Assembly: GCF_964340395.1 (NCBI RefSeq)
Contig: NC_135551.1
Location: 25,103,003-25,167,002 of the forward strand
DNA from: Glandiceps talaboti
Lineage: Eukaryota > Hemichordata > Enteropneusta > Spengelidae
Reading direction: 5' to 3'
DNA: 64,000 nt
Part shown: one piece after another, positions 8,801 through 53,360 of the stretch
Numbering within the stretch: the first letter of the stretch is position 1
Layout: each line of letters opens with the position of its first letter
Program-made: the position numbers and the translations under genes
Notes under the pieces: model-generated
Seen by the model: only the letters and a program-made list of their open reading frames with translations
The model's database searches: none
What the model was told of the DNA's origin: nothing

Positions 8801-8975
8801 TGGTGTCTGGCCTCATACAAAAATGTAGTTACATTTGTACATGTTTAAAACGAAAATTGCGAACATTTTTGTAATAAATTTTAGTACTTTAGTCTAAGAT
8901 TGGTAAAGGAAGGTCAAAAACAAGGAAAGAGTTGATTTAGAATCCACCAGTTTGGAAAGAGCTTGTTTTGTCAAG
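2830..8975. repeat. 169-bp tandem satellite, about 36 units
   Basis: Head-to-tail units of 169 bp, highly similar in the centre and decayed at both edges (before about 2950 and after about 8600). Each unit carries 'ggtaactctggtgtctggtc', 'aaaatggc(g/t)gac' and 'tttagtctaagatgg'. Variants alternate between units: 'gattcaattt' versus 'aatgaattt', and 'ggcggac' versus 'ggctgac'. The rarer 'ggtaaaaaac' variant occurs near 3991, 5174, 5850, 6864 and 8047. These are spaced by about 7, 4, 6 and 7 units, which indicates multi-unit duplications. There are no unique spacers, so this is not a CRISPR array. Unit length is close to a nucleosome repeat. Confidence 0.95.
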
Positions 8976-12240: not shown

Positions 12241-13315
12241 TATGTAGGTCAGAATTTAACTTCAAATTTTTTATTTTTTATTTTTTTTATTTTATTTTTT
12301 TTTCTGAGAGCCAAATGCTTCAACCCAAAGACAATATACCTGTTGGTCATCATATATCTGTGTAAGGTATAAAAGAATTGAAGAAAATGAAAACAATTGT
12401 ATGTGAAGGAGATAAACACAATATGCAGACTGTACTGTGTAAATTCAACTTACAGTCTTAAAATACTTGGTTACCTATCTTGGGAATGAGGTTTATCAAC
12501 AGAAATGACCAAAGATACTTTGGCAAGAAAAGTTACACGGGCAATACAAGTAAATTTTCGTAACTTTTCCTTTTTGAATGTTAAAAAAATGTTAAGGGTT
12601 GGCAACGTATGCTAGGGTCAGTTGGGTTATTGGAAACACACAATTGTTATATTTGGCGTAAACTGTACCGTTGTGCTACAATGCCATTTCTTGCCATTTA
12701 TACTATACAAAGCATGTACTTACAAATGTAATAACTGATGGGGGGGGGGGGGGGTTCAACTGCCACAGATGACAATATCATTATGGGTAGGATCTTAGTG
12801 AAAGTGATGTTTTTCCAATGTCTCCAAGTATGAGAATTAAGTGGTCTGCTTTTCAGTAAAAAGGAGGTAGGTAGTACTTAGTAGTAGCGTGGTTAGTATT
12901 GTTCCAGTGCTGTGTAGTGAAATTTTTAGCTAGGTTTAAGTTATGACAGTACTATTACACATGCAAAGGGCTGTTGTGACTGGTCTTTGTCTGGTTATTA
13001 TAGACAGCTGGGTGTGACAAAGAGTTCCTTTCTTTTTTCCAAATGTGGTGGGACTGCACTTTTGGGTTTCCACCCCACCCCACCCCTTGTAAGTTTACCC
13101 AATCCTCTGTAATCTTATGCACTTTCAGAGACTGTAATAGAATTGTTTGCTCCCTAGGAAGCAGAAGTAATATGAAAGGTTATAAAGGGCATAATGTGCC
13201 ACTATAGGTACATGTCAGGGGTACTAATTGTAAAGAGCTGCAATATAAAAGCTATATTAGTATTATTTTGTTATTTCAGTGAATGTCGTAATACACAGTA
13301 GTTGCCGTTAAAAAG
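12241..13315. other. Upstream region of the ankyrin-MYND gene
   Basis: Contains poly-T/A stretches and a G homopolymer run near 12739-12755. 'ttatttcag' at 13271-13279 looks like a splice acceptor 36 bases before the start codon. The gene probably has an untranslated first exon further left, but I could not locate that exon or its promoter. Confidence 0.45.
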
Positions 13316-16300
13316 ATGTCTAATATCAAAGATAAACAGAAGGACTATGGACTAACAAAGGAGAACCCAGCAAGGCCAACTACAGACTTGGCAGTACTAG
13401 TGTGTGCCATGCAAAACCCAACTCTGCTAGAAGAATGCATGGAAGAAGCACTGACATTTCATAAATATGAAGTTGACGGTAAAGACTGTCTTGGAATGAC
13501 TGCACTACACTGGGCTGTCTGCTATGAAAGAGTAAGTGAAAACTTCAATAGAACTTGAACTGTAAATGGATGCAGAAATCTATTACCTGTGTTACCTGGA
13601 TTTTAGAGTTGTCAGTGGCCAATTGGTTTACACCACCTGTCTTGTACCACTGCCAGCCCTTGTCTGGGTTAGGTAGATTAAAGGGGAACAAGTTTATACA
13701 TGTTTAGGCATAGTTTTTACTGCATATTTAAAAGGTATACTCACATTACAATGGTTAACAGGGAAGTAAAGCATTTCAGCGACTTATCCCATTCCATTCA
13801 TATCATGTGTAAAATACCAGTGTTTGATTATCAGCTCAGTACATAGTTACGCACACTTAACCATCACTTGCAATTGCGAAACTCAAACCTGGTATTAAGA
13901 CATAACTCTTAAATGATCCGATGACATAATTTGTGATACATATCAAAAAATATTCTCCAAATTCCTACTATGCAATCAACAGTTTGAGCAATGCCAGAAG
14001 ACAATCATAATATTGTAGAAGACTTACATCAACATTAACATTTTACTGGGGATGTGGTTTGATTGAGTATTTTCATTCGAGGAAAAAGCTTATAAACTCA
14101 GCTTGTGCTACTTTTAAGTTTGCCATGCTGCAAATAAGCAGAATATTGTTCGGTTTGACTACTGAGAAATGTAGTTTTTCCCAGGCATTCTGTTTTTTTC
14201 CTGCATTAACTTGGTCAACGTTTATAACGTGTCAGTGTGGTTTTCCTGACTGATTTCAAAGACTAAGGAAGAAATGAAGAAAGAAAGAAATATAATTTCC
14301 AATTGGCTTGTTATTTAGAACTCTGGTTGACAATACTGTATCTTGCACATGTAAAAAAAACATGGCTTACAGGGTTCATATGCTCCTGCAAACTCATGGA
14401 AAATTAGTTTAGGATTGGTGTAACAGATGAAAACTACCTCAAGAAATATGTTTTAAAAAGCAGATGTATTGGCAAGTAAATTGTATTCCACTGGTCAACA
14501 TTCCTGGAAAATGACCAAACGTTGATATGAATACTCCTGGAAAGTCCTGGAATTGTATTAACTTTAAACTTTTGAACCCCCACCTGGTTAATGAGCATAT
14601 TAATGTTTGCTGTATTTTGTTTTTAGGTACAAGCCATCAAATTACTTATTGGTAAGGGAGCAAGAATTGATTCTTCAGACAAATTTGGTGGTACACCATT
14701 GTTCTATGCAACAGGTATGACTTTCATATAATGGCTTAATTGTAGATAAAATGTACTCAGACCAATAGAGTGATTAATATATAGCTGATGTTTCTGGAAT
14801 AACCTTTCTATGAGCTAAAGCCTAAACACTGAAAGTGTAGGAAATCACTGATATTATTAATGTCCTACTGTCTAGTGGTTGTGTTTTATAGGGATAAAAT
14901 TGGAATATACCTTAGAGCAATTTCTTTAGATCAACCAAATGTACATATCAGAACATACCACTTACAGAGACTTCAGTGGATTGTATACTTCCCAGAAGTG
15001 GAAGAAGTACAATTAAGACCATTGTTCCAGTATAAATTCATGCCAGGAGTAATAATTATAAAGTGCTTTTTAATTAACACAGTGTGGAAAAGTACAAAAG
15101 GAACCCTAATGTCATCATTTTAATTATATGTATTATGGGAAGGGATCCGGAAGCCTCATGGAATCGACAACAGACACAATAGTGTTTGTGTAAGTTTGAG
15201 AGTGGCACACATTCTGATTATCTGTCTTATAAAATTGCTTTTTCATTTATAGGTAGAGCACCAAATGCAGAAATTGCACAATATCTGATAGAAAACGGAG
15301 CAACTGTTGACTATCGTAATACAAATGGTGCCATACCACTTCATGGTGCTGCATTGCAGGGAAATACAGGCAAGTGAGTTTATTATATATAATTATAAAC
15401 TTTTTTACTCCCTCTTGCAGGCATCACCGGCAGGTGCAGGGAGGGGGTATCTGTTCATCCATGTGTAATCAGTCATTTCGTGACATACGATATCTGGTTG
15501 CTTTCATACCTGTCATCCAGATTAAGACCACGTGTTATTTAGTTAGAGACCATGTTGGCATCCAGACTAACTATTGACTGAATTACTACAGATAGCATTT
15601 AATTTGCCACAAAAATTACCACCCAAGAATTTATGAATAAACTCAGTTTGTGCCCCCTTTTAATATGTTTTATTGCCACTTCTCACATATAGATAATTCC
15701 CCACTTTCACAAACTGCTATTTGAATAATTTTATTGCAGAGTGTGTAAAGTTATTGCTAAAGCATGGTGCCGACCCAAAAGCCATGGATCATGATGGGAA
15801 AACACCGTTAGACTTATGTGATGCTGAGGAAACCAAGAAAGTAATTTACAAGGCAAATAAGAAAGCTGACAAAGCCAAAGAAAAATCTGGTAAGTTGTCT
15901 GATGTAATAGTCAATTTTCTGGTTCTAAGATGCATGTGAAGCTTATTTTGTCTGTCACCTTTTTATCATTAAACAATTGAAAGACACATTGGTCTGTTAA
16001 AGTCTGTGTTATTGTAAAAAAGACAGACTAAACATCAAGACAAAATATTTTTTCTCTAATTTTTACTACCTTCAAAACAAACACTCAAGTTTCATCTACA
16101 TTCATGCCAAGCATTGATCATACAAATTACTGTTGATACAAATGGGGGGGGGGGGGGGGGGGTGTTGCATACATTACGTACCCAGATGTATCATATTTTG
16201 GTGGGTTTTAGTAACCCTGCCAAAAATCCTGAGGGAACTTACTGACATGTAAGTTTGACCTACTTACCAGCATTAAAGTGCAACAAAGGCAAGGCTCATA

Positions 16301-19300
16301 TTATCTTGGTTTTATTTCTTCAGGGACCTAAAAAGTCAATTTTTACCAATTTTGTGTCACATGACCTCTCTAAAATAGTCTTAAACATTGGCAAGCCTGG
16401 CTTAGGAGAGGCCTGTGCTCTGAGGCAAGGCTTTCTATAAAACAAATCAAGTTATGAGCTCTTATAATCTCTTTTATAGCCTTAACATTGTTTTGGCAAG
16501 GGATAAAGAGGAGCTCCTAATTGCCCCTTCCCCCCCCCCCCCCAAATACTTTGCTCCAGTGTACAGCACACCTCATCTAAGCCTAATTTGCCAACATTTG
16601 TAACACTATTTCAGAAAGACTGTACAATGCAGGGTTGGAGAAAATTATTTTTCTTGGTGTCAGAAGCATATACAATGCAGATGAGACAAAAACAGCTGTG
16701 CCTTTGTTTTCCCATTAATGAAAACACTGCATAACCCAAATTACGATTTAATGTCAATAATAATAATAATGTTGGGTTCTTATTTCGCGCTTTCCCACTC
16801 CATGCTCAAAACGCTTTACAATTATTACTCCTGGCTCGGGCCAGAATGGCACAATGGCCCTTTAGTCTTCCTCAACTCCCCGGGGAGCATACAATCCATT
16901 AAAGCCCTCACATTGCAACCTACATCCTACCAGTTCCCCAATTACACAGCTGGGTTGACTGAGGCACAGTCGTGGTTCAAATCTTGCCCAAGGACTTTAG
17001 CCACTCAGAAACAAACAGGAGGCAGCGACGGGGCTCGAACCTGCAACCTGTAGATTCCAAGCCGGTTACGCTAACCTTTCCCCCATCATGACTCCACACA
17101 AAGTACCTATCATATTAATTATGTTGTAACATTGATTTAAACAGATGCTCACTGTGCTTGGTGTGGTGAAGGCCATGATGATCTAAAGAAGTGTGCAAGG
17201 TGCCATTCTGTCATGTATTGTGGGCGAGATTGCCAAGTTAGACACTGGAAAGAAGGTGGACATAAGAATGACTGTAAAGGTAATGTCAGAACAATTGCTG
17301 GGCTGGGTATATACCGGTAGTATGTATTTTTGGCCCAAAACTTTTGTTTAGCTAGCTTATTTAGCTGAGATGGTTTTTGAACCAAATTAATTATTGTAAA
17401 TATGGAATTATGTTACTGTTATGAGTGTTTTCTAGAGACAAGTTTAAAAGGCAAGGTGAAATAAAGTGTGAATCAACAAACTTGATAAAAGTATACCCCG
17501 TATCGGCACTAACCATGAAAAATTAATTACTTGATACTTAAAACTTACGAGCAAAGTAAATAATATGTATTAAACTTATTCAAACTTAATTCTCATTAAC
17601 ACTCATTGTGACAAATGGCATGTTTATCTGTTGAATACAAAATATCATCAATGTTGTTGAATGACAATGTTTATATTAATGCAAATAAAAAGATTCCTCA
17701 TGAAAATAGTCAATATGCAAGTGGACTTCAAAATTTGGCTGTCAAATGCAGTAAAAAAAAAGTTTACTATGTCGCCTACTGAAAGGAGGTATTTGTAAAA
17801 ATTCACCTGTATTGGACCATTTATCACCTGCAAATGCCAGTACTTGCTGGCAACTTCCTAGGCTGTGTAACCATAAGAGTTCAAGTTCAAATCCCGAGTG
17901 AGTGGATTTACTGAACCAATGAGAATGTGTCTTACGCCGAAACTTACAGGTGCAGTACCTCAGATCACTCTGTTCAAAAAGAGATTGAGTTCAGAACGCA
18001 GACAACGATGTTATTGTTATTGTTTGGTGGTTCTCATTGTTTCCATTTCAATCCTCAAGTGTTATATCGTAAAATAGATTCTAATTGGTTTCATGTATGT
18101 ACAAGATTTGAACATGAACTCCTATGATATTGTGTCAGATGTAGGAACAAGCCACTCACTTTATCTATCTATATATAATACCAGCTAATCTCCTTACGGA
18201 TATCACAGCTGGGGGAAGGGATGCACACAAAGATCTAGTAGTAATGTTTATGGAGTTTAGCCTTGAAAGTGTCAGTGTCCTGACTGGCTTTCATATCATG
18301 GTGTAGTGAGTTCCAGTCTCTAATGGTTTTAGGAAAGAAATTGTGTTGATACACTTGATGTTTAAATCCAAGGTGCTTGAAATGGCCTCTTCTACCCAGT
18401 GCTAGAAGATCAGTGTCTCTAGTAATTGTTATCTCCCCATTTACAATTTGGAACAGTAGTATCAACCTTGCATTTAGATGCCTATCATTCATGGAACAAA
18501 AAAGAATGTAGCAAAAAGGGGTAAATTATTTAAAAAATCACTACATCAAATTTTAATCAGATTGACCAAAATCAAAACTATGATTGGCAAAAATACATGT
18601 ACACAGTATATGTCAATGCTTCAACTAAAATGTGGCTTTTCCATTTTGTGAGAACCAAATTTTGTAAAGGAATCAAATATTGTGCATTACATCTGTTATT
18701 CTCTGTATTATGTTTTCTCCCAATGTACAGGTCATATTCTTGCTTACCCAGTCATGCCACAAGTCCCGGGTCAGGATGTATGTGGAGTTACCTTCTCAAA
18801 TGTGTTTGGAGCAATGCGACCAACTGTTGATGTCCGTATACAGCCACCTACAGCAGAATCCAAACCCAAGTCCGGTTTTTTGAAAAATACTAGATTTGTT
18901 GTGAAGGTTCAAGTGCCATTAGATGGAGTTGATGGTCACTGTGGTAATGATGGTGAGTATAGTTTAACTGCCTTCAATGTGTAGTCTCAGTTACCCAGAC
19001 CCCTCTCTCACACGTCACAGTGGTAATGATGGTGAGTATAGTTTAATTGCCTTCAATGTGTAGTCTCAGTTACCCAGACCCCTCTCTCACTGTGGTAATG
19101 ATGGTGAGTATAGTTTAATTGGCAATGCCTTCAATGTGTAGTCTCAGTTACCCAGACCCCTCTCTCACTGTGGTAATGATGGTGAGTATAGTTTTATTAC
19201 CTTCAATATGTAGTCTCAGTTACCCAGACCCCTCTCTCACTGTGGTAATGATGGTGAGTATAGTTTAATTGCTTTCAATATGTAGTCTTGATTACCCAGA

Positions 19301-22300
19301 CCCCTCTCACTGTGGTAATGATGGTGAGTATAGTTTAATTGCTTTCAATATGTAGTCTTGATTACCCAGACCCCTCTCTCACTGTGGTAATGATGGTGAG
19401 TATAGTTTAATTGCCTTCAATATGTAGTCTCAGTTACCCAGACCCCTCTCTCACTGTGGTAATGATGGTGAGTATAGTTTAATTGCCTTCAATGTGTAGT
19501 CTCAGTTACCCATACCCCTCTCTCACTGTGGTAATGATGGTGAGTATAGTTTAATTGCTTTCAATATGTAGTCTTGATTACCCAGACCCCTCTCTCACTG
19601 TGGTAATGATGGTGAGTATAGTTTAATTGCTTTCAATATGTAGTCTTGATTACCCAGACCCCTCTCTCACTGTGGTAATGATGGTGAGTATAGTTTAATT
19701 GCCTTCAATGTGTAGTCTCAGTTACCCAGACCCCTCTCTCACTGTGGTAATGATGGTGAGTATAGTTTAATTGCTTTCAATATGTAGTCTTGATTACCCA
19801 GACCCCTCTCTCACTGTGGTAATGATGGTGAGTATAGTTTAATTGCCTTCAATATGTAGTCTTAGTTACCCAGACCCCTCTCTCACTGTGGTAATGATGG
19901 TGAGTATAGTTTAATTGCTTTCAATATGTAGTCTCAGTTACCCAGACCCCTCTCTCACTGTGATGTGGTAATGATGGTGAGTATAGTTTAATTGCCTTCA
20001 ATGTGTAGTCTCAGTTACCCAGACCCCTCTCTCACTGTGGTAATGATGGTGAGTATAGTTTAATTGCTTTCAATATGTAGTCTTGATTACTCAGACCCCT
20101 CTCTCACTGTGGTAATGATGGTGAGTATAGTTTAATTGCTTTCAATATGTAGTCTTGATTACCCAGACCCCTCTCTCACTGTGGTAATGATGGTGAGTAT
20201 AGTTTAATTGCCTTCAATGTGTAGTCTCAGTTACCCAGACCCCTCTCTCACTGTGGTAATGATGGTGAGTATAGTTTAATTGCTTTCAATATGTAGTCTT
20301 GATTACCCAGACCCCTCTCACTGTGGTAATGATGGTGAGTATAGTTTAATTGCTTTCAATATGTAGTCTTGATTACCCAGACCCCTCTCTCACTGTGGTA
20401 ATGATGGTGAGTATAGTTTAATTGCCTTCAATATGTAGTCTCAGTTACCCAGACCCCTCTCTCACTGTGGTAATGATGGTGAGTATAGTTTAATTGTATT
20501 CAATGTGTAGTCTCAGTTACCCATACCCCTCTCTCACTGTGGTAATGATGGTGAGTATAGTTTAATTGCTTTCAATATGTAGTCTTGATTACCCAGACCC
20601 CTCTCTCACTGTGGTAATGATGGTGAGTATAGTTTAATTGCTTTCAATATGTAGTCTTGATTACCCAGACCCCTCTCTCACTGTGGTAATGATGGTGAGT
20701 ATAGTTTAATTGCCTTCAATGTGTAGTCTCAGTTACCCAGACCCCTCTCTCACTGTGGTAATGATGGTGAGTATAGTTTAATTGCTTTCAATATGTAGTC
20801 TTGATTACCCAGACCCCTCTCTCACTGTGGTAATGATGGTGAGTATAGTTTAATTGCCTTCAATATGTAGTCTTAGTTACCCAGACCCCTCTCTCACTGT
20901 GGTAATGATGGTGAGTATAGTTTAATTGCCTTCAATATGTAGTCTCAGTTACCCAGACCCCTCTCTCACTGTGATGTGGTAATGATGGTGAGTATAGTTT
21001 AATTGCCTTCAATGTGTAGTCTCAGTTACCCAGACCCCTCTCTCACTGTGGTAATGATGGTGAGTATAGTTTAATTGCTTTCAATATGTAGTCTTGATTA
21101 CTCAGACCCCTCTCTCACTGTGGTAATGATGGTGAGTATAGTTTAATTGCTTTCAATATGTAGTCTTGATTACCCAGACCCCTCTCTCACTGTGGTAATG
21201 ATGGTGAGTATAGTTTAATTGCCTTCAATGTGTAGTCTCAGTTACCCAGACCCCTCTCTCACTGTGGTAATGATGGTGAGTATAGTTTAATTGCTTTCAA
21301 TATGTAGTCTTGATTACCCAGACCCCTCTCTCACTGTGGTAATGATGGTGAGTATAGTTTAATTGCCTTCAATATGTAGTCTCAGTTACCCAGACCCCTC
21401 TCACTGTGGTAATGATGGTGAGTATAGTTTAATTGCCTTCAATATGTAGTCTCAGTTACCCAGACCCCTCTCTCACTGTGGTAATGATGGTGTGAGTATA
21501 GTTTAATTGCCTTCAATGTGTAGTCTCAGTTACCCAGACCCCTCTCTCACTGTGGTAATGATGGTGTGAGTATAGTTTAATTGCCTTCAATGTGTAGTCT
21601 CAGTTACCCAGACCCCTCTCTCACTGTGGTAATGATGGTGAGTATAGTTTAATTGCCTTTAATATGTAGTCTCAGTTACCCAGACCCCTCTCACTGTGGT
21701 AATGATGGTGAGTATAGTTTAATTGCTTTCAATATGTAGTCTTGATTACCCAGACCCCCCCCCCCCCCCCCACTCCTCTCTCTATCCTATCCGGGTTACC
21801 AATCATACAGCTTTGTTGACTGTGGTGCAGTATTAAATCAAATCATACTCAAGGTATACTACATATCCTTGAGGACCAATAAATAAATAATAAATAAATA
21901 ATAATAATAATAATAATAAGGATGTAAGTCATTTAGAAATAAATGTCAGTACCAAGACCAGAACCGACAACTTGTAGGTTCTGAACTGACTATTCAACCA
22001 TTATGACAAGGGTTTTTTTTGCTGACAGCTTACTTAACGTTTTCTTGTTGAAATTGTGGGCATAGGTATCGGTATTGGTAAAGGAGATATGATGGTATAC
22101 AATGAAGATAGAACTGTTTTTGTCTTCATCAAAGCCTCAGAACCAGGTAAGATGAAAAAGATATGGCCATCTTTAAGGGGAACACCACTCCAGGAAGTAA
22201 AGGCATTTTTGTAAACTTTGAGTTATAGAGTCATTTTATGATTTTATATCACTTTGCATTACTGTCAAAATGTTTGGTCTATTGTTTAATGATAGCCCCT

Positions 22301-23278
22301 ATTAGCAGCCACACGTTGTGGGGGGGGGGGATACAATCCACTGCTGCCACCAAAACTCTGTGTAACCATATAGGATTAAAACATTCACATCACAACTTCA
22401 ATCCTACCAGATCCCCAATTTATCACCTGAGTTGACTGGGTCACAATCATTGTTCAAATCTTGCCTAGGGAGTTAGTTTATCCATTCAGATGCAAATGAC
22501 TGGAAGGGCTGCGCAAACAAACTTGCTACTCTAACCACATCTATGTCACTACACCGTACATCAGAGAAAAATCAGTAGCAGTACAACCGAGTCTCTATGT
22601 GTTGCCACCACTCATTTCATCAGTTAGTGTTTGATCAGTCCTAACTAAAAAAAATTGTGTGGTTCTGATTACACTCTTAGAATAGGTGGAGTAGGTAGAT
22701 TTTGTATTGTATTTTTTTTATATATACATTTGGTTTCATATATCACATTATCAGTGTCTAGTTCAGGTAGTTATGTTTTCCGTTGTTTTCCGTATGGTCT
22801 CTGTGCTATTGGTTACTTCTCATCAGATATACAGCCATTACAGATTGGGAGAACAGTTTCATATTGTCTTTTTAAGTTGATGTTAGTTTTCCCATCCACT
22901 ATTTCTTGCGAGACTTCACAGTTTTCACGATTTTATTATTTTTTTGTTTGAATACATAAAAAAAGTGAAAAATGAGGTGGGGGTCGGGTAACCGGAACCA
23001 AACAATTTTTTTTTAGGCCTCATTATTTTAAACAGCACTGTAAAAGGATGTCACATCAACTTGTTTCTTGTTCTAGTTTTCAGCAGTTTTAGCTATCATT
23101 GTTAGAATTCTATTGTGTCTTTTGATTTCTCTTGTTAGAATATGGTAGCATCAGAAAGAAGATAACCAATGAGGGATTCATGAGAGTGAAGGCATATTTC
23201 TGGGCAGAGTTATGCAATGATGACACTGGTGCTGTCAAAATATATCACGGAAAGACTGCTCCATTCCAACAATGGTGA
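13316..23278 (+). CDS. Ankyrin-repeat and MYND-finger protein, 8 exons, 382 aa
   Basis: Coding exons: 13316-13531, 14627-14714, 15253-15369, 15740-15889, 17145-17279, 18731-18952, 22066-22146, 23139-23278. They join in frame to 1149 bases, and all junctions after exon 1 are phase 1 except the first, which is phase 0. Residues about 57-175 form three to four ankyrin repeats (TALHWAV, TPLFYAT, IPLHGAA, TPLDLC). A lysine-rich linker follows. A MYND zinc finger at 194-234 has its full Cys/His pattern (CAWC, CARC, YCGRDC, HW, HKNDC). A tail of about 147 residues ends in FQQW. Ankyrin-MYND proteins are usually protein-interaction adaptors; no catalytic domain is visible. The tail and MYND match the C-terminus of the neighbouring convergent STAND gene. 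Intron 3 starts with GC. Intron 6 begins with a large tandem array. It is not orthologous in layout to ANKMY2. Start chosen as the first Met, after an upstream acceptor. Confidence 0.9.
15370..15739 (+). other. GC-AG intron (intron 3 of ankyrin-MYND gene)
   Basis: The donor is ACAG|GCAAGT, the typical sequence of a GC donor, and the acceptor is TTGCAG. Using the nearby GTGAGT at 15374-15379 would put exon 4 out of frame. The GC donor keeps the ankyrin repeat at its exact consensus spacing (GAIPLHGAALQGNTECVKLL). Confidence 0.8.
16140..16165 (+). repeat. G homopolymer run
   Basis: About 18 consecutive G inside intron 4 of the ankyrin-MYND gene. Runs of 9 or more G recur all over the window (also near 700, 12740, 22320, 23546, 37440, 50180, 56780, 57326, 58530). 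Confidence 0.85.
16755..17095 (-). mobile_element. SINE-like element with tRNA-like head
   Basis: On the minus strand the element starts near 17095. It has a tRNA-like head with a perfect B box, GGTTCGAGCC, then 'ccgtcgctgcc' and a body. It ends in an ATT trinucleotide tail (16755-16772 on the plus strand). The head matches 49428-49500, and the body matches the copies near 21775 and 22290. It lies in intron 4. A polymerase III-derived retroposon is the natural reading. Confidence 0.75.
18235..18492 (-). pseudogene. LINE reverse-transcriptase C-terminal fragment
   Basis: An 85-residue frame on the minus strand contains 'RLILLFQIVNGEI', 'YQHNFFPKTIRDWNSL' and 'FKAKL'. This is the conserved end of many non-LTR retrotransposon polyproteins, where the FFP-x-T-x-x-WN-x-L motif precedes the stop. 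It is antisense in intron 5 of the ankyrin-MYND gene and only the tail is left. Confidence 0.8.
18937..21758 (+). repeat. 72-bp tandem array made from an exon end and its splice donor, about 39 units
   Basis: The first unit is the real end of exon 6 (CACTGTGGTAATGATG) plus the donor GTGAGTATAG and about 50 bases of intron. This whole piece is repeated about 39 times, so nearly every unit carries an exon-like end with a GTGAGT donor. Two units near 21490 and 21560 read GTGTGAGT. Rare variants recur 1011 bases apart: 'ccatacccc' at about 19510 and 20521, 'gatgtggtaatg' at about 19962 and 20973, 'gattactcag' at about 20086 and 21097. This shows a higher-order duplication of 14 units. The array ends in a C run at 21758-21770. 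Confidence 0.95.
21775..22012 (-). mobile_element. Degenerate SINE-like copy
   Basis: It shares 'acagct..gttgactg' and 'gacaacttgtaggttctga' with the element at 16755-17095, and contains AATA/AAT runs at 21880-21918. The head is damaged. It sits in intron 6 just after the 72-bp array. Confidence 0.5.
22290..22560 (-). mobile_element. Degenerate SINE-like copy
   Basis: The body matches the 16755 element in order: 'catacaatcca' (here 'gatacaatcca'), 'cctaccag.tccccaatt', 'gttgactg', 'gttcaaatcttgcc'. The tRNA-like head has decayed. In intron 7. Confidence 0.55.
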
Positions 23279-27277: not shown

Positions 27278-30200
27278 CTACCATGTTTGCACTGGAGCTA
27301 GTACATCTGTGAACACTCTCAGTGTTTTGCCACCATCTGCAAATGCTGCCCAGCAAAACATCTTCTTTGCTGTGTGTTTGCTGACCCCGATGAAGCCACA
27401 TTCTAAAAGGATATGGTATAACCTTGGTGATACAATAATGGTATCTAGCATTGTTGTCTGGTCATACAAAGTCAAGGTCTGCTCGGGTTCGTATGGGTGG
27501 TTCTCTTGATCTTGAATCTTAACAATAAATCGACATTTACTTTTTGGGCTTGGCACTTTGCCCTTCCCAATGCCTACAAGTCCCGCCTTGAATGTTCTTA
27601 ATACTCTCATACAGCCCTTATCCGTGAGGTGGCCACTTATATGCTTGTAGCCTACAGTTTCTGGTACCACACATTCTGTGTAGATGGCAATGTAAAACTT
27701 ACAAAAGACCTCGTGTTCTGGCCAATGTTTCCTTTGACACTTTGGATTGCAGTATGTAACTTTCTTGCATTGAGTACAAAACTTGAGTTCCCCAGAGTTA
27801 ATTGGTATACACTGACAGCTGGCACACCTACCACAAAGAGTGCCAACCTTTGCTACCAAATGCTGTTGTGTGTTGCTGTTGTTGTAAACCAGATTTTCAA
27901 CCAGGACTGGTGGTGTTGTATAGAAAGCATCCTCTCCCAATTCATGCTTCAGTTTTCCGAGCATTCTTTCAAATTCTTGTCCCGGACATGGTAGATTTAT
28001 TTGATCATTGAATTCAACATGGAATGGGGGTCCTGTGTGGTCATGGATCAGATTTTTCTGGACAAGACATTGGCCTGAGAAATGCGTTTCAAACTTGATA
28101 CCTCCATCTCTGTTATGGTAAATGTCATTTTGTCTCATTATATCCACCGTCTGTTCTCCAATTATTACGCCCCAATGGTCATTCTCATAAATGGTGTTTC
28201 CTTCTATAGAGGTACTTCCACCTGCTGTCTTGATACCTCGTGTTCCGTTTTTGGCGATTACATTGTTATAAATTTTTACGTTTTCACTTTCATATACAAA
28301 CACTCCATCACCACAGTTATTACAAATAATGTTATCTTCAATTATGGTTTCACCAGCACTAGGGCCTACATACACTCCATGCAGCATGTTTCCAATTATT
28401 TTGTTTCTTGTGCATGTCAGTTGACCACCTTCTGAAACTTCAACGCCAGATTGGCTTCTATTACAGATAGAACTATCCTCAATATGACAGATTGCAAGTC
28501 TCTTTGCAAAGATGCCACCACCAAGACCCCCTTCTGCAATAGTTGAATTACGTACCATGAGTGTACTACCACGATCTCGAATACCAACAGTGGGATAGCT
28601 AATGGTATCTGCACATTTCGTTTCCCTTACCCTTTTGTGTTTGTAATTGCACCTGAAACATCCTTGGCAGGGTTCATGATGCTCAAAACTCTCCATAGGT
28701 TTAGCAGATCCACCCGCAATAGCACATGAGGATATGATAATTGAGGTTTTTTGAACACCAATGATACCACCAAAGCTTATGGGGAATGAAATATTCTCAA
28801 TAAAGAGAGAACTCTTACTTGGTGTCCACATTTTTCCATAGTCAATTGTCACCTTTCCAATTCCAATTAATCTAACATTCAAGGGTGTTATGTTAATCGA
28901 GTCAGGGAGTTCATAAGCACCTTCTTCAATCAACATTGTGGTCACTGTGTGATAATCTTTGCCAAACATTTTCTTTAACAATTCAGATTTAAAATTACCA
29001 GAATTGATGACTGTATATCTTTCCATTTCACTTACTAGAATTTCTTCAAATTGTTTCTTGAGAAATATTGATGGGATCCCAAGATAGTGTGCAACACTGC
29101 CATTCGTGATAACTTCATTTCTGTATTTTTCTTGATTTATCATTTGCAAGGCTTGTGATTTCCGTAGGTAGGCTTTGCAATATCTTCTGTTAGTCTTCAT
29201 GCTTTCTTCAGCCTCTTTCAATGCTTTGTGTGGCTCTTTGAGACAAATATAACATACAGATTGATTACAATGAAGAATGGACAGCAATCCTTTGTCTTCT
29301 GTATGTTCCATAGCTTCAGAGTATTTACAAATGGCATCATCAAACTGATTCTTTTCAAAAAAGGCATTCCCTTCAGCCTTCAATTTCTCACTTCTTGTCT
29401 TATCAATGGTTTTGCAAACCTCCTCTCCTTTCTCAGTTGTTTGCATGTGTTGCAGCATTTTCTGTTGTGTTTCTTGCTGTAACGGAACCTGAAGAGTCCC
29501 AACCAATGACTGCAAGGATAACTTATCCAAAGGCGGGCTGAATCGAGCCAATAGCTCTAACATCCTATGCTGTGATTCCATGGCAACAACATGTCTCCGT
29601 TGTACACTATAGAATATTGCACTAGTTTTGAAAGTATGAATGACTTCTTTGTGTAATATTGGAAGATATGGTCTTTTGAGTCTGTCGCATGTTTTGATAA
29701 AGTTTTCAACATGATCAGTGACATTGCAAGCATTGAGAGACAACCTTTTCCAGAGAACTAATTCATTTGAAAAGGAAGCTTCTTTTTGATCCACTAACTT
29801 CTCTGGGCATGATGTGTGGCAGAGTGCATATTTTAGCATTCTGCAAGCTGAAAGTAACAGTGCGCCTTCATCGTCAGCTGACATACCATCACGCACAACT
29901 TCTTGAACCATTCTATGTACCCTAAGGGAGTTATTTGCAGATGACCATTGAAAAAGAGAAAACTTGGTAAGTACTTCAGTAACCTGATTTGCACCAAGGC
30001 TGTCGCTCATACAGCCATACAGGTCCTCTTGTGTAACCACAGGATCTCCAATATTCATTATCTCTCTTGGTATGTCTTCTGATGCAAGGAATGCTGCAAT
30101 CTTCATGAACATTGTTGCTGCTTGTCCGAGGCTTTGTTCTTCTGACATTTCTGATATGTATTCGAAATTCATAAGCCATGTGGTGTGCACTGCTAGACGC

Positions 30201-33200
30201 ATTTTCGACTGAGTTGTATTGCCTTTCAGCTTTTTCTGTTTTAAAAGTTTGAGTTTGGATTTCCTGTACTTTTGAAGATACTCGGTAAATGAGCATCTAA
30301 GAGATTTGACATGGGCAGCAGCTTGCTCAAGGGCGAGTGGTAATCCTCCCAATTCAGTGACTAAATCATTAACTTCTGTCTGCTCAGACAACACGTCTCG
30401 TTGTGTTCGGACTGCAAAAAAGCTCGCACCATCTTCTTGAGACAAGGATAAAAGTTCGATACACTGCTCTTCTCCAATATGACAACTCTCCCCTATTTCT
30501 AAGGGTTCCCTTCTCGTTGTAACCAAAATGGTACCATTTGTTCGATGCCTCCACTTGCCATTTAATATCGTCTCTGTTTCCTCCGAAAGTTCTAACTCAT
30601 CAACATTATCAACAACTAAGAGCCACTGATGTGCTTGAGTCTTAAGCCAGTGTAATGTCTTTGATAAGGTATCACGGAAGTCTTTTCCAGAGGTTTTCAA
30701 CTCAATAGCCAATTCCTCCACTGATAGCTGCAGAGTTCTATGATCATCGGCATTTATCCAGAATGTACCTCCAGGGTGGTATGTTTGATACTTCCATGCA
30801 AACTCAGCTGCTAGCGTCGTCTTACCTGTTCCTCCTAAACCACACACTACAACTACACTGCATGAATCTTTAGATTTCTCTTGACAAATGACATGTTCCA
30901 ACTTAGACATTTCTTCTCTTCTTCCACTGAAAAACCTATTGCGATGTGGTACGAAGAAATGGTTTACGGTAGGAATTGGTTCCTGTGTAGACTCCTCGAT
31001 ATGATCGACTCTTCTCTCAAGAGTGTGTTGTGCTGCTTGAACTTCATCAACTGTTGACTTCAACTCACTGTGTTTTTCTTTAACACAAGCTAACTCTTCA
31101 CCAATCTCTGACTGATTTGTTTGTATATCATCTACCTTATCTGCCAGTTGGCTTTGTTTTCCTTGCACGTCTTTCATCGCAAGTTTTAAAGTACAAGTAT
31201 CTTCCACCACGCCTTCCACTTTCAAATCAGTGGCTTGTGTTACTCGCTTTAAGTTCTGTATATCTACTTTCATGGTGCCGATATTTTCAGAGATGGAATT
31301 TATAAAATGACGAATTTGCTCTTTCTCTTCTTCTTGAATGGCATCATTCTGGATTATATAATTTGCCATTACTTTAACATCTGCATGAAGTTTGTTCAAG
31401 ACATCTTCGTTACCCATTCCACCAATGCATAATGTTAGCCCTGTATAAAAAAAAGAGTACAACAATATAAAGAATACTCCAAGGCCAATGACATTGTAGC
31501 ACAATATATTGTACCGATCTCAACTAATTAGGAGGGCATACATTGACTACTATAGAAAGCGAGCTGTCAACAAACTAAGATAGACACAAACTAACACCAT
31601 TGTTACAGCATGTTGGCATAAGGTATCAATGAATGTCTAGGGTGGTGTCTATGATAGTAAGTTTATTTCAAGTGGCCATACACCAAATCCCATTAATTAT
31701 TTACACTCTAAGTCTTGATGACAGGGTGATTTTATCTACATTATTTAAGAATATAATCTACCACATGCAATAATAATAGTTTAAGTTTTGTGTCTATTTC
31801 AGATTGTTGATCAGGTAGTTTGCTTCCCATAGTATTAGTAATATTTCAATACTTATACTGAGAGAAACGGGAAAGGGGTTACCAATAAACTAAAATCTTA
31901 AATTTGGAAAAGGGTATTACCATCAGTTTTCCAGTCTTCTAGTTTGTTCTTTAATGCATCTTCTTTCTCCCTTGGCAGTTTCAATGACATTACCATCTTG
32001 GTCATAATCTGCAATTAATCAACGGAATGAATGCCTTATGAATTAAACTTTATTGATCATAATAATCAAGACCACAAATTATTATTAAAACAACTTCATT
32101 TACTATCTACACCAATCTACATCAATGTGAACTTATGTATTGACACTCTTCTGTGGTCCGAAGGGTAATGTTGATTTATGAAACATATTCATTAGAAATG
32201 TTTTTGCATATTACCTTATATTAAAATTAATATGCATAAGTAGTATGCTCAGATTAAATTTTAGACTTCAAGCACTCAACATGCAAACCAATCTCTAAGA
32301 TTGGCACGTACGATATATAGCATAGGATAAACCAGGTTATGTTGCTGTAACTATAAACAGCATAACGGGGAAGTATCAAATTAACCCCCACCCCCAGGGA
32401 GGGGGTGAACAAATACAAACATGTATTATACAATTTTTATTCTAAGGTCACCATATTTCCCTAAACCTTTTCCATAACAACTTAAAGCAAAATCAGTGGT
32501 AAGCTTATAGTCTGTTTGACTGCTGGCATGGTGTATACAATAAAGTCAAACATACAAAACCATGGGTGACAAATCTCATAAAACTCAGACTGACATGTAT
32601 AAAAAAAAGCTGTTAAAACTAATTATAAAAATTGTGGTTTTGGCAGTTTCAATAAGTATTTAAATTTTATAAGCTCACCTTAAAACACTGCAAGAATTTC
32701 ATATCATCCCAATTGGATATATTGCAGTGTCCCCACTCATTTCTCACTTTATTGCGTACATCATTGGTAGCATTTGCCAGAAACTTGCCTCGATTAGAGA
32801 AAACAGACACTTCTGATATCAGTGATAGGCAAGCAGATATATCACAGCTCTCATCAAAGCCTGTCATCTTTGACATGAAAGACTGAAGATACAATTTTGC
32901 CAAATCAACTGCGTCAGTTATATCATAATTATATCTAGCAAGATGACGGCTATGTAGTCGGCCATTACCATGAATATTTTCATACTTCAGTTTCTTATTA
33001 CTACTATAGTCCTGGGGTAAGTGATTAGCATAAGTCTGTTTGTTGATATAATATTGAGATTTAAGGTCGGCATAGTGATTCTCCATTTCCCGTTTTACAA
33101 CTTCTCGTAGCACTGGAGTGAGAACATTATTGAGAACAATACCAACTACAGTCCAACGGGTTTCATTTTCACTAAGTGCAAGTCTTTGCTCTCCTGTACA

Positions 33201-33237
33201 GAAAAAAAAGATGAAGGGAAGTTAGGTGCTGGAAATT

Positions 33238-33268
<31 letters not shown>

Positions 33269-34444
33269 TGACGACGACGACGACGACGATGACGACGGCG
33301 GCGACGAAGAAGAAGAAGTAGAAGAAGAATCGAAATTTTATTTTATTTTACTTTAAATGTTTAAAAATAGAGCCAATGGTGTTGTAGCACAACTGCAGTT
33401 TTTGAAAAATGTTTATCCACATGCTGATCTATGTTAGGTATAGGTGTTCATTTGCTGAATGATTATTCAGTTGCCTATCCAGCCCTGTTGTTATCTTTGC
33501 AATATACGATCATTTGGCTGTTGCTATTGGCGTGGTCTTGTTGCTAGATATATTTACATATATTTTTTAATTGTTTTTCACTTGTCTATGAATCCATGTT
33601 ATCTTTGCGATATACACCATAGTTTGGCTGTTGCTATGGGTGTGGGCTTGTTGCTAGGGATATTTGAATACATTTTTTGAATGTTTACTAGCCTACCAGA
33701 TGATGTTATTTTACCAAAATATACTCTGTCATTTGGTTGTTGCTAAAGGTGTGGTCATGGTTGCTGGGGCCAATTGTCAAAAAAAAATTAAACATTTGCA
33801 CGTCTAGAAACATCTCACCAAATTTCAGTCCCAATGACGAAGTACTTTCTGAGATACAAGTTTTTGACCACAATTCACATTTTATACCTAATTTGCATAT
33901 TGCCAATGAGATCATTACATGCTTACTTTAATAGTTCTTCATCTACACATCCCTAAATGCATCCCCATTAAATTTCAGCCCAATCTGCTCAGTAGTTTTG
34001 GAATTAAAGATTTTTGACCAAAAAGACAGATTTTAGCCATAATTTGCATATTACTGATGGGGGTCATCATGTCATAAACAAATCTTAATGTACACACTCC
34101 TAAGAATCTTCCCACAAACTTTCAGGCCAATCTGCCTAGTAGATTTTGATTTTAAGTTTTTTTGACCAAAATGACATTTTTTGAGTTCAATAACACACCT
34201 GAGTTGCTATCATTTTGCTTTCAATATATTCCCAACTAGACACCAATAGGAACATTTAAAACAATATCAAAACAATCGGAGGAGTAGTGTTTGAGTTGAA
34301 GTCGTGCACACACTCAGACAGATAGATACCGCAATATGCCTAGAGCACTACTTAACACCTTATTGGTTCAGTTGTGTTGAAAATTACTTCGACCCCAAGT
34401 TGATATACTCGTCGGTCACAACAATACACACACACACACACACA

Positions 34445-34530
<86 letters not shown>

Positions 34531-34537
34531 GTCTCTC

Positions 34538-34633
<96 letters not shown>

Positions 34634-34929
34634 ACTCACTCACTCACTGTGAAAACAATTCCCAGCCTACCTTTCCTTGGTATTTCATTTTTGGCAATTT
34701 CTATAATCCTTGGCTTTATCTCATGAACACTTCCTTCAGCGTGCTCCCCGAAAAATTTCTGAACATAACCTTGTTCATTAGCATAAGCATTCCATTCCTT
34801 CAGATCTCCGACGGGAAAGAGATCACCACTTTTACCAGTAAATTTTCTCATGGACTCCATGTTTGTTTCCAACTGAAAAGGACACACTACTTTCTTTAAT
34901 ATCAAGTTTTCACATTCAAAGTCTACCAT
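27278..34929 (-). CDS. STAND/NLR-like protein: HEPN-like, coiled coil, NB-ARC, TPR, beta-helix, MYND; 4 exons, 1674 aa
   Basis: Exons (minus): 34671-34929, 32679-33193, 31921-32008, 27278-31440. They join in frame to 5025 bases with GT-AG introns; an in-frame stop lies just before the ATG. Residues about 90-258 resemble the CXorf38/DUF4559 family and carry an R-N-E-W-G-H (237-242) HEPN-type R-x4-H motif. Residues 326-441 are coiled coil. NB-ARC: P-loop GLGGTGKTT at 488-496, Walker B LLVVDN at 561-566, GGLPLAL at 652-658. TPR-like helices lie at 969-1056 (EGNAFFEKNQFDDAICKYSE). A right-handed beta-helix of G-V/I-x-V and N-x-I-x-x-N coils spans about 1156-1436, with a Cys-rich insert (CQGCFRC). 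The MYND finger is 1490-1534, and the tail ends VQTW. Known biology: NB-ARC proteins are ATP-driven switches; HEPN domains with this motif often cleave RNA. A sensor-effector role is inferred. Confidence 0.92.
33235..33340. repeat. Composite trinucleotide repeat (AAC, GAC, GAA)
   Basis: Consecutive AAC, GAC and GAA/GAG triplets in intron 1 of the STAND gene, 42 bases upstream (in transcript sense) of exon 2. Confidence 0.9.
33365..34300 (+). repeat. Interspersed repeat family R, long copy in STAND intron 1
   Basis: Same order of blocks as 1635-2525: 'gtagcacaactgcag', 'ggctgttgctatggg', 'ggttgttgctaaagg', 'catctcaccaaatttcag', 'tcagcccaatctgc'. It ends in 'gtgcacacactcagacagat', a simple 3' tail. 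A 5' sub-block is partly duplicated (33500-33560 and 33600-33665). It is antisense to the gene. Confidence 0.65.
34427..34648. repeat. (CA)n-(CT)n microsatellite
   Basis: A CA tract (34427-34446), a long CT tract with a few G interruptions, then CACT repeats to 34648. It lies only 22 bases from the donor of STAND exon 1, in intron 1. Confidence 0.95.
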
Positions 34930-38900: not shown

Positions 38901-39219
38901 TAGTCTGTAAGGTACGCCGTGACGGTGCGCCCTCAAACATCGGCCAACCCCTAACACGTCTGTATCGAACTGCACTCTTCCCAGCGTTTCCAACCAGAAC
39001 TGGTTGCGGCCAATCACAGGCATGCACACGATTAGAGGCCGTTAAATGACACTTTTATGTTAATTTATTTCAATTTCACTGGCGACGTAATCAAAAATTG
39101 CGTCACCGATATTAGCATACATTCCGCCCACAACCGTCTTGTATCTTATCATGTGTACACAATGTAATGTATACCCGATTACGTTCTCAGTTTGCAAAGT
39201 ACGTCGAGTTACCAGCAAA

Positions 39220-39534
39220 ATGTCTGTCGTGAATGCCATTACGAAGTCTTCCCATGAATTTGGAATAGTGTTGAAAGAGAAGCAGAGAGAATGTCTGGAG
39301 GTTTTTTGCACTGGAAGAGACGTGTTCGCGATACTACCGACTGGTTACGAGAAGTCGATCATATATTACCTAGCACCCAAAGTCATCGATTTAATCAAGG
39401 GTCAACCAGGTTCTATAATTCTTGTTATTTCGCCTCTCGTTTCACGTGGTCGAAACACAACTTGCAAACCCCAGCACGTTCATGATCTTCTTTTCGTAAC
39501 GGGACACAAAATAAGTCACGTTAATAGGACCTGA
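39220..39534 (+). pseudogene. RecQ-type helicase N-terminal fragment
   Basis: Residues read 'FGIVLKEKQRECLEVF', then 'DVFAILPTGYEKSIIYYLAP', 'GSIILVISPLVS', which is the Q-motif/motif I/Ia order of a RecQ ATP-dependent DNA helicase. Motif I should be TG-x-GKS, but here the second Gly is Glu (TGYEKS), expected to damage ATP binding. After 'SPLVS' similarity stops and a stop codon follows. Only about 80 of several hundred family residues remain. It is enclosed by the TIR element, so it was either captured or is a relic of the element's own cargo. Start placed at the first Met before the similarity. Confidence 0.75.
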
Positions 39535-45560: not shown

Positions 45561-45983
45561 TCAATCCTTGGTAAGACTCACGAGAAGTCTTCTTTCCTCA
45601 GTGAAGCCAAGTCTAGCATGTTGAACGTACACATTGTCAAGAACCAAGAGATCTCTCTTCTGCAATTGAAATCCAACAGCTGCATTCCACATGACATTTC
45701 GAACATGCTGTAAAGTTTCTTCCTCTATGTCACTACCATCACCATAGTAACAGTGAGAAGGATATTGGTCATCGGGGATGTTGAGATGTACAAAATGCGG
45801 TGATACTTTGAAGTACGATGCATGATTTAAATGTAGCTGATTAAACCACAATTCTTCACCTGTAGGAGTGATGACAATAGATGCATATAGTGAACTAAAC
45901 TAGTATATGGTTATCAATCAATCAACCAACCAACCAACCAACCGACCAACCAAACAAACAATCACACCCACTCACCCACCCAC

Positions 45984-46065
<82 letters not shown>

Positions 46066-49000
46066 CACGGGTGATTTCCAACGGAGATCATTGTGGGGGT
46101 AGTGTTTGTTGTTCGTTGGTTTGTTGTTGTTGTTTACTCATGTATGTATGTACTCATTTGTCGGTTAAATTGTTTTTTTTTGTTTATTTATTTATTTGTT
46201 TCTTTGTTTCTGTTTGTTTCTTTGTTTGTTTGTTTGTTTGTTTGTTTGTTTGTTTAATTACTTACTTACTTATTTGTATATTTGTTTGTTTGCTTGCTTA
46301 CTTGTTTGTTTGTTTATTTGTAAACAAAACTAACTGAGCCTGAGCTCCCTGTGATTAGAGTGGCATTGATTTGGTTCTTCTGAAATACTCAGATGACTTC
46401 TGTCGTTTAGATTTCAAAATCCGTTCAAGAGATTTCGAAAAGGACCATACACAAGCGGAGTTGCTAAAATACAAACTCCACGATCACATCTGTTGTAAAA
46501 AGTATTCATTGCAGACTTGAATGCCGTGTATATGTATTGTTGTATTGTCATGTGTGTTGGCAATTTTTCGCCCAAAATTCACCATATAATCTATACACTG
46601 AAAGTTTATGTTTAGGGCCAGACAGACTATTTATATTTCCGGCTACCCCAATAGCATTATTTTCCGAGAGCATAGAGGAAGCATTTTGTTCCTACTAGAC
46701 GCAAGGCAATGTTTTTTGGAAATAAATGTCTTAAATTTGGCCATTGTCCTTACATCGCACCACTGTGTGGAGGGAAAGAATGGGACATTCCATTACCAAT
46801 AAATTAAATCTCGTGATCTTCTTTCATTACACATGATGACTAGATGAATGCATTTTCTTAATTGTCATTCATTATTGTTACATACATTATGCAGATCACA
46901 AAAGCTCATGAGTCAGTATATGTGAGTGTCGTTTTAGTTTTCTCTCTGCTCGGCTGGTGTGTGGATGTGGCGTCGTCCCTGGCCTCAACTTTTCCAGTAG
47001 AATATTATCCCAAGACCCTGTTCTAAGGTAAATCTGTGAATCTAGTTGTGTTTGTTACAGTCGATTAAGGCCTTCGTTCTGCTTTGAGTTAATTTGGCTG
47101 AAATACAGCCACGGTTTTGTTGAGCAGTTGAAAGTTTTGTACTTGTACCACATCTTCGTTCTACGCCGAAGAATAGCGTGATTGAGCTTGGAGTTCATAC
47201 ATAACAGTAAACCTAGGTATTTCGCTGCTAAATTTCTGCGATTTTACAGTCTTCAGCTAGTTCTTAAAGACTATTTCTTTTACGAATTACCACACTGGTA
47301 CACCGTGTTCATGTAAAATAGGGTGTTTTAGGGAGCTTTGTACGAGCTTGCAGTAATGATAGGAGGAGGACCGGGGTATTAGGGGGATCACTTTTTACAA
47401 GTCTGTCCCGAGGGTCATATTTTAGACCATGGAAATCAGGGAGGAGGGTCACATTATACTATGACACTTTTTTATTATCTAACTTTTCATTTTGTTGTCA
47501 TTTTGTGGCATGATCCCACCCACTGCCACCACTTCCAAATCCTACTGCTACCACACCCGGTACTGTAAAGTAATGTCAAAACATATCAGTGAAATGTACT
47601 GAATTAACTTTAGTTATGGTTTAAAGAGAGGAGTGGGTCTCAAAGTAGTAAAAGGCGGAGCAGCGTGGCAAGATATTTGGCATAATGTTGTGGAGTGGAG
47701 TTGAAGTTGTCAGTTGTGTGCTCTTCTAGTCTTTCGCTCATCTGGCCTTCAGCTTAGCCACACCCAAAAACAGGCACTGATTTAATACAAACCCACTGTG
47801 TTGGTAATAGTGGGAAAAAAACAAAATGCCTTTAAAGATCCTGACTACTAATCTTGAGCTCACAGGGAGGCGGTATTAAAAATGCGTTTCATTCAAATAT
47901 TTGACTACGGGGGTGTGGCGTCATATTTGAGAGATAATGATTCGATTCAAAGGAAATTGAGGGAGGGTCACATTTTAGCACAACGGACTAGGGGAAGGGT
48001 CACATTTTATGCCACAGACCTGAGGTTGATTTCCCTCCCCTTGTATATTTACTGAAGGCTCTCTTAGTCAATACTTGTATTTGCATTTTTGTTTTCCAAT
48101 GACAAAAGTGAAAAATAAGTCTCAAGCGAAAATGTCCAGGTTTACTGTATTTCCAGAGCTAAAAGCAACTAATTCGTTGTGACATACTGAATATATGCAT
48201 TTATCTATTTAATTTGGTGGTGAGGAGTATGAAGTTAGTCTCAGATTCAGAATCAGATTCACACTGGAAGACAATATGAGGCTAGTCTTATATTAATCCT
48301 CAGATCCAGTCCCATATATGGAAAATCGCGATGAGTGCAAACAAAAGCAAATGGTGAATGCCAAAGCTGCAGGAAATGTCCCATCTTCACATCCAATTGC
48401 AGGGCATGGGGCATGTCACCAAGCAAGTGAAAGCGGCTAGATGCTTTATTTACCTCTATATTCATCGTTTTGTGTCGTTTTTAATTGTTTTGTTCCGAGT
48501 GATCGCCGTTGGAAGATTAGGAGGCAATCACTCGGAACAAAACAAACGACACAAAACTATGGAAACAGAGGTAAATAAAGCATCTAGCAACTTTCAACAC
48601 ATCAGAGTTTAATAATCAGATTGGTCACCAAGATATTTGTGAGAGGTCAAAGTTCAGCTGATGGTATGTTTCTTGGTTGGCTCTGTTCTAATGAAGTGTG
48701 TCTGTGACAAGTATTGCAGCTGTTTAAAAGATTTTAATCTTATTAAAAATTTTGTAGAAGTAATATTTTATACGGTGGGTGAGAGGTACTAGGTGGGACA
48801 TTTCCTGCATTGAGTGTCATCAATTTTTTCCGTATATGAGGCTGAATCCGAGGCTCAATATGAGACTAGCCTCACTATGAATCCGCTGATTCTGAATCTG
48901 AGACTAACTTTGTAGACGTTTTGTGCTGGTAATTGCCGTCAGAGCCAGCAAACAAAACATATGCGGGCTCCGTGTGATAGTAAAGTTTTTCTATCAATGA

Positions 49001-52000: not shown

Positions 52001-53296
52001 TATTTATCACAGTGAGTATAGCGGAGTCACACATTGGTCACAAACCCCCTTTATCACATAGAGCGGGCCGAGGAGGGCGGAACGACACGTCGACGTCAGA
52101 CATTCGAGAATTTGGCCCCGTTAAATCTCATTATTATCCATCGGGTAAGGCCACTACTGCTGGTGGTAGGCAGTTGATTCGAAGCTTTATCCGATCCCAC
52201 AGGGACATTATAATCATGATAATAGATTATATCACAGGCGAATCCTAGGCCTGCTAAGAACTATAAATGTATCCTTTCCGTAAAAGTAGGGGAAATATTA
52301 TTCAAAACGTTGTTATATAATTTATCCTGTAGACAATATTACGCCCATCCCCCCTATGCTTTCTCTTATGCAAGTCACTATATTATAGCCTAGCTAAGCG
52401 CATATAGTACTAGGCTAGCATGAAGTTAAAACATTATTGTCGATTAGCTGAATTGCCTGACTCCGGGTTATACGTGCAGCATCTCGTTAGAATCAAATGA
52501 ACAGTGTTCAAGCAAACTACTATATATTGTCTTTCTGTCTATTGAAATTATGTTTATTTTGCATACTGGAAACAATATATAATAAAAATGTAGTTTGCTT
52601 GAACACTGTTCATTGCCTCGGTAAAAATGTGTATACGTACTTCGTCTTCGGAAAGTTAAAGTTATGTAACAAAACAACAAAAAACATGTACCCCTTGCCA
52701 GCTACATATGTTTCCGGGTTGATGTGACGGTAGATGACGTTGATACTGGATACCAACTTTGCGTAACTTCTGGACAAGGTTTGGGTCGAGTCCCGGTAAA
52801 ATGTCCCTATTACGACAGAGAACACTTTCCCCTCCATGGCCAGGTTTGGCAGGTATGTCACAATAAAAGAATATCTGGGGGAAAAAAAGACAATACGTGT
52901 CGTATGATCATTGGTTAGCCCACATACTTGTCTTGGTGATACTAGTCCTGCTTACATGACGGTGCACGAGTATGTATTACTGACTTGACTGGGAGAGGGA
53001 CAATTGTCAGAATCGATTCCCGAATTCCTCCGTATGCAAGCAGGACTATGGTGATACTATCTCAAGAAGCTGTCTACGCAAAACCCAATGCTTTTGTATT
53101 TGACGGCATGTAGAAAGCTGTACTGAAGTCGGTATTACCACTCTTCTAAATCTAAGCCGGAAGGGGCACAAGCTGAGTTTACACGGGTTTGGGCGCAGTT
53201 TAGGCAGCATATTTATTAACAGTACTCGCAGTATTTTGCTTACAGGAGCGCACTTAGCCACCACACACACGCACGCACGCACGCACGCCCACGCGC

Positions 53297-53360
<64 letters not shown>

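Follow-up and report, generated by a model that had tools for sequence, protein, structure and literature searches.

A predicted NLR-like STAND protein of Glandiceps talaboti that joins a CXorf38-like HEPN domain to clamp-type TPR, beta-helix and MYND modules

Our results support a model whereby a single minus-strand gene in the window (the whole 64-kb stretch of DNA analysed here) encodes what is probably a cytosolic NLR-like STAND sensor with a CXorf38-like HEPN endoribonuclease as its effector, in which a trigger would induce oligomerization and the oligomer would cut RNA; we assign this reading a probability of roughly 0.55. The gene encodes, in one polypeptide, a HEPN-like domain with an intact R-x4-H motif, a coiled-coil-like stretch, an NB-ARC ATPase, DUF7779, a clamp-type TPR block, a beta-helix, a MYND finger and a conserved C-terminal domain. 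HEPN-STAND fusions are already known in animals, and the version described here, with its clamp TPR, beta-helix and MYND finger, is a new variant. CXorf38-family HEPN-NACHT fusions were reported in 2013 (PMC3710099).

Results

Four exons join into one reading frame

As originally predicted, four minus-strand exons join in frame into a protein of 1674 residues; the joined frame comprises 1674 codons plus the stop, has no internal stop codon, and all introns are GT-AG.

34671..34929, minus strand: exon 1, encoding residues 1-86 (plus 1 nt) and opening with the ATG at 34929
32679..33193, minus strand: exon 2, encoding residues 87-258, which contain the core of the CXorf38-like (DUF4559-like) HEPN domain
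31921..32008, minus strand: exon 3, encoding residues 259-287 (plus 1 nt); the conserved region continues past the motif
27278..31440, minus strand: exon 4, residues 288-1674 plus the stop codon

Exon 4 alone is open for ~1387 codons, the chance of which is near 10^-43 from base composition. A search of 5.8 billion proteins gave 15 matches at E<=0.001, with P0001 (LOC144922377 of a Branchiostoma hybrid, 1651 aa) ranking first; it is 33% identical over 96% of the query and, in the parts of the alignment displayed, collinear from the HEPN region through to the C-terminal W. Because of this collinear match, the sequences make it very likely that exons 2-4 form one gene, and collinear relatives in Branchiostoma and octocorals likewise point to a single gene. 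For exon 1, no homologue was found; of the 165 other ORFs in the window, all but two are no more coding-like than exon 1 in codon usage, on a score trained on exon 4 and with some of the comparison ORFs themselves likely to be exons.

The orphan status of exon 1, together with exon joins that were predicted from DNA alone, would be compatible with two adjacent genes wrongly joined, one comprising exons 1-3 with the HEPN domain and the other exon 4 with the STAND part. We regard such a join as extremely improbable because HEPN and Walker A lie within one protein in nine of 11 relatives (P0001-P0008 and P0017), including named chordate and cnidarian proteins. The other two (P0009 and P0010) are without the HEPN stretch and begin in the coiled coil. 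No paralogue of the gene was seen in the 64-kb window (tblastn, E<=1), the sole match outside its own exons being the MYND finger of a neighbour gene (E 0.005). The first intron of the gene contains a long CT microsatellite (34447-34645) near the exon 1 donor.

The N-terminal domain is likely a HEPN domain

The R-x4-H motif that had been predicted in a CXorf38/DUF4559-like N-terminal domain is RNEWGH.

32727..32744, minus strand: RNEWGH, the R-x4-H motif, at residues 237-242; a candidate catalytic site for an RNase

Among the profiles proposed at the outset, those for NB-ARC, the beta-helix and MYND exceed their cut-offs, whereas DUF4559 (CXorf38) matches exon 2 below its Pfam cut-off (22.1 bits against 27), with the match ending at R237. 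A profile search with the domain yielded 423 proteins at E<=0.001. Within a set of 66 sequences (alignment A4: the window exon plus 65 relatives drawn from the best 120 of 423), HEPN_Swt1 matches 15 and DUF4559 11 at E<=0.01; when ten members were taken singly, HEPN_Swt1 was matched by five and DUF4559 by four at E<=0.1, none of these matches reaching the cut-off. The whole RN-x-W-x-H lies inside the HEPN_Swt1 stretch in all five members checked, and a precomputed domain list assigns PF15112 to P0111 and P0123.

Conservation was counted in 132 sequences that matched at 1e-10 among 138 scanned, including the window protein; this set combines the best 120 of the 423 profile matches with earlier matches and leans towards close relatives, and the six rows without a HEPN match (P0009, P0010 and P0013-P0016) were left out of the motif counts. 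N238, W240 and H242 are present in 132/132 sequences and R237 in 131/132, and an upstream acidic residue, D204, is likewise invariant (132/132). D204 fits a HEPN active site, for which an upstream acidic residue has been described (PMC3710099). The same 2013 survey lists the CXorf38 proteins under its Swt1-like entry and calls the group active, and it names a Zn ribbon inserted in the HEPN domain among the salient features of the group (Table 1), a feature that may not hold for every member. There is no C-x2-C pair in residues 1-460 of the window protein, and because the inserted Zn ribbon is thus absent we term the domain CXorf38-like rather than a member of CXorf38.

An AlphaFold2 model of exon 2, built on a thin alignment of ten sequences, is mostly helical and, with a pLDDT of 46, too poor for fold assignment; PDB sequence searches with exon 2 or with the 66-row profile reached no solved HEPN structure. 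The HEPN identity proposed at the outset therefore stands on the weak profile matches of the relatives, the conservation of the motif and the published classification of CXorf38, and not on structure, and we consider it likely. RNase activity of the domain would follow from the motif, since such activity is predicted where the HEPN motif is present (PMC3710099). Alternatively, the domain might bind RNA or another HEPN domain without cutting, in which case the STAND scaffold would signal by assembly while the N-terminal domain senses or tethers RNA. The RNase activity of this domain is itself a prediction, and non-catalytic RNA binding has been proposed for some HEPN domains (PMC3710099), but those domains are motif-less, whereas here R, N and H are near-invariant; we consider a non-cutting domain unlikely, if the strongest of the alternatives to RNA cleavage.

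The same type of HEPN domain occurs outside the architecture studied here. In P0011 and P0012 (Actinia tenebrosa), it lies near the C-terminus of what, going by Pfam names, are presumably Roc-COR GTPase proteins, and in P0065 (Dendronephthya gigantea) a DUF4559-like HEPN precedes a HEPN_DZIP3 domain (E 4.3e-44) in tandem. Judged from these sequences, the CXorf38-like HEPN is a portable domain, as expected of an effector. When the HEPN profile of the family was compared with the DZIP3-type HEPN of P0065, the similarity was not significant (E 0.54), although the local alignment set their R-N motifs no more than a few columns apart.

An intact STAND switch follows a coiled-coil-like stretch

30983..31291, minus strand: coiled-coil-like heptad stretch, residues 338-440
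30257..30877, minus strand: NB-ARC STAND ATPase, residues 476-682 (PF00931, E 5e-10), with Walker A at 488-497, Walker B at 560-570, TTRR at 595-598 and GLPLA at 653-657
29873..30136, minus strand: DUF7779, residues 723-810 (Pfam, above cut-off)

The heptad pattern of residues 338-440 was reached by none of 5000 shuffles. PF00931 scores 39.5 bits against a cut-off of 23.5, and all 12 rows of the alignment retain the GLGGxGKT Walker A, the Walker B aspartate, TRR and LPLALEQ, in agreement with the full NB-ARC P-loop and Walker B of the original prediction. Within DUF7779, VHRMVQE at residues 795-801 occupies what we take to be the MHD-like position. The protein thus has the tripartite layout of NLRs, with an N-terminal domain (the putative effector), a central NTPase and C-terminal repeats. 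No LRR is among the 25 Pfam families listed for the window protein at E<=1, and because TPR and beta-helix replace the C-terminal LRR we call the protein NLR-like.

In a midpoint-rooted tree of 12 rows, the window protein is grouped with two Branchiostoma proteins (support 100/100) apart from nine others, and three of these nine non-Branchiostoma relatives (P0003, P0008 and P0017) are from the octocoral Dendronephthya. On this small tree, it is plausible that the architecture is older than the cnidarian-bilaterian split.

The TPR block carries a candidate chaperone clamp

29123..29395, minus strand: TPR block, residues about 970-1060

The predicted TPR-like helices proved to be a block alignable to Hop TPR1, with Hop/STIP1 as the best match (E 2e-13) and SGTA, PP5 and CHIP further down. 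Residues K975, N979, N1013, K1043 and R1047 align with what we take to be the five carboxylate-clamp positions of Hop TPR1. By analogy, the EEVD tail of Hsp70/Hsp90 may dock at this clamp, which would hold the sensor in a folded, ready state. The window TPR has an alignable block and the five clamp residues in common with Hop/STIP1, SGTA, PP5 and CHIP; these co-chaperones, however, are adaptors or enzymes, whereas the window TPR lies inside a STAND protein, and we know of no described clamp TPR within a STAND sensor. The K/R spacing agrees with that of K160 and R164 of SGTA, the double mutant of which no longer bound Rpn13 (PMC5101480).

Across the 11 rows with an alignable TPR, the clamp reads K-N-N-K-R in two (the window protein and P0007) and R-N-N-K-R in four (P0001, P0003, P0006 and P0017), and it is lost in five (P0004, P0005, P0008, P0009 and P0010); the TPR region is missing from P0002. 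Because of these losses, chaperone docking is not needed family-wide. The same losses speak against a second alternative, in which the protein serves not immunity but quality control or stress sensing linked to chaperones, its TPR monitoring Hsp70/Hsp90 tails and its HEPN domain lowering translation under proteotoxic stress. Such a sensor would be in keeping with the alignment of all five residues to the presumed clamp positions of Hop TPR1, with the SGTA-like spacing and with sacsin, a chaperone protein for which a HEPN domain acting on RNA has been proposed (PMC3710099). The low identity (33%) to the nearest relative found would suit a conflict gene at least equally, and we judge a stress sensor to be quite unlikely.

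The C-terminal half combines a beta-helix, a MYND finger and an unnamed domain

27881..29017, minus strand: right-handed parallel beta-helix, residues about 1096-1474 (Pfam, above cut-off)
27701..27826, minus strand: MYND zinc finger, residues 1493-1534 (PF01753)
27281..27523, minus strand: unnamed conserved C-terminal domain, residues about 1594-1674, ending W-stop

Instead of the roughly six coils originally counted, the beta-helix is full-sized, with a low-confidence insert at about residues 1199-1235. The MYND finger is intact as predicted, PF01753 scoring 33.6 bits against a cut-off of 22.7 and the eight zinc ligands (C4-C2HC, seven C and one H) being invariant in 11 rows (alignment A2). 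A search with residues 1080-1674 recovered two proteins, a Candidatus Aenigmatar... beta-helix protein and Dendronephthya P0017; it was insensitive, as P0001-P0010 were not recovered.

A right-handed parallel beta-helix is also found in FBXO11 and in bacterial NosD/AlgE. The fold in common with NosD/AlgE shows no enzyme function, and FBXO11 has an F-box, whereas the window protein is without one. This difference bears on a third alternative, a ubiquitin-ligase-like or transcription-linked adaptor in which the beta-helix and MYND recruit targets and the HEPN domain is vestigial. MYND is a protein-interaction finger, and one relative, P0002, bears the source name FBXO11, both of which would suit an adaptor; against it, neither an F-box nor a UBR finger is among the 25 Pfam families listed for the window protein, and the HEPN and NB-ARC motifs are intact, so we hold an adaptor to be very unlikely. 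P0002 (Branchiostoma lanceolatum) carries, its database name notwithstanding, a CXorf38-like HEPN and a NACHT match, and the name perhaps derives from its beta-helix.

Discussion

In NLR and STAND proteins, a ligand frees the NTPase, and ATP binding drives oligomerization. By analogy, in our preferred reading of an NLR-like sensor with an RNase effector, a trigger would be bound by the C-terminal half (beta-helix, MYND and/or TPR), upon which ADP-to-ATP exchange in the NB-ARC would open the protein and let it oligomerize; the coiled coil would then pair HEPN domains into a composite active site, and the paired HEPN would cut viral or cellular RNA and thereby stop the infection. Ligand, oligomer, RNA cleavage and immune role are all inferred. 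More speculatively, the protein might be a self-contained, chaperone-docked RNase "resistosome" in which the built-in Hsp70/Hsp90 clamp guards chaperones or keeps the sensor primed, the HEPN domain fires upon sequestration of the tails or upon binding of a beta-helix ligand, and the architecture dates from before the cnidarian-bilaterian split. We regard this as a rather doubtful extension; if true, it would provide animals with a route to translation shut-off that is independent of RNase L and caspases.

Fusions of HEPN domains with STAND ATPases have been reported in bacteria, and cephalochordates and cnidarians are reported to have CXorf38-family HEPN domains fused to NACHT ATPases and to DEATH (PMC3710099). 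These animal fusions resemble the window protein in that a related R-x4-H HEPN sits on a STAND ATPase, and a defence role via RNA degradation was already proposed for them there. They differ in that NB-ARC is the best-scoring assignment for the window ATPase, which is accompanied by DUF7779 and followed by TPR, beta-helix, MYND and the C-terminal domain, and in that the window HEPN falls below the DUF4559 cut-off and has no inserted Zn ribbon. Pearl oyster and cnidarians have large expansions of HEPN-NACHT proteins of the DZIP3 type (PMC9646362, PMC8260672), which similarly place an N-terminal HEPN effector on a STAND ATPase, and the NACHT proteins there can carry a C-terminal TPR; their HEPN, however, belongs to another family (PF18738), with no significant similarity to ours in the profile comparison above, and the term "MYND" is absent from the main texts of both papers. 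Of the NACHT and NB-ARC proteins described in corals, those with NB-ARC mostly have TPR and many have an N-terminal DZIP3-like HEPN, and neither a beta-helix nor MYND is mentioned in the part of that account consulted (PMC10236652). The full domain order was not met in the consulted parts of PMC8195603 or PMC9334734, and a literature search whose coverage lay largely outside subscription journals found no paper describing it with the beta-helix and MYND. The original claim that no described protein is known with this exact order is qualified by the HEPN-NACHT fusions of 2013 and by proteins of matching architecture that databases already contain under the label of uncharacterised loci.

In vertebrates, most NLRs have adaptor domains in place of HEPN. 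With a STAND protein that is conserved in animals and retains the HEPN motif, the persistence of nuclease-output NLRs in animals would become testable, and amphioxus and octocoral members are available for such tests. Moreover, NLRs depend on Hsp90, and a clamp TPR would allow this dependence to be studied within one polypeptide.

Other features of the window

A neighbour gene on the plus strand, with exon-like ORFs at 13292-23275, contains ankyrin repeats (13292-15936, some below cut-off) and a MYND finger (17141-17317, E 1.4e-11). Two of its pieces resemble the C-terminal domain of the window protein very weakly, RFVVKVQ at 18892-18936 (tblastn E 8.0) and KAYFWAE...FQQW-stop at 23189-23275 (E 1.1); if these are real, MYND and the C-terminal domain would form a module common to both genes. 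A minisatellite of about 38 copies of a 72-base unit (19015-21758) lies within the span of the ankyrin-MYND ORFs, and a satellite array at 2873-8814 consists of about 35 copies of a 169-base unit with 97% matches, and positions 4001-8000 have a GC skew of about 0.37. On the plus strand, 39091-39531 holds a fragment matching a DEAD/DEAH helicase (21.1 bits, cut-off 26) that is RecQ-like by eye. Finally, two pieces of a TauD/TfdA-type dioxygenase on the minus strand within 45564-53992 (45564-45899, E 1.9e-8; 53243-53992, E 2.6e-7) perhaps belong to one gene.
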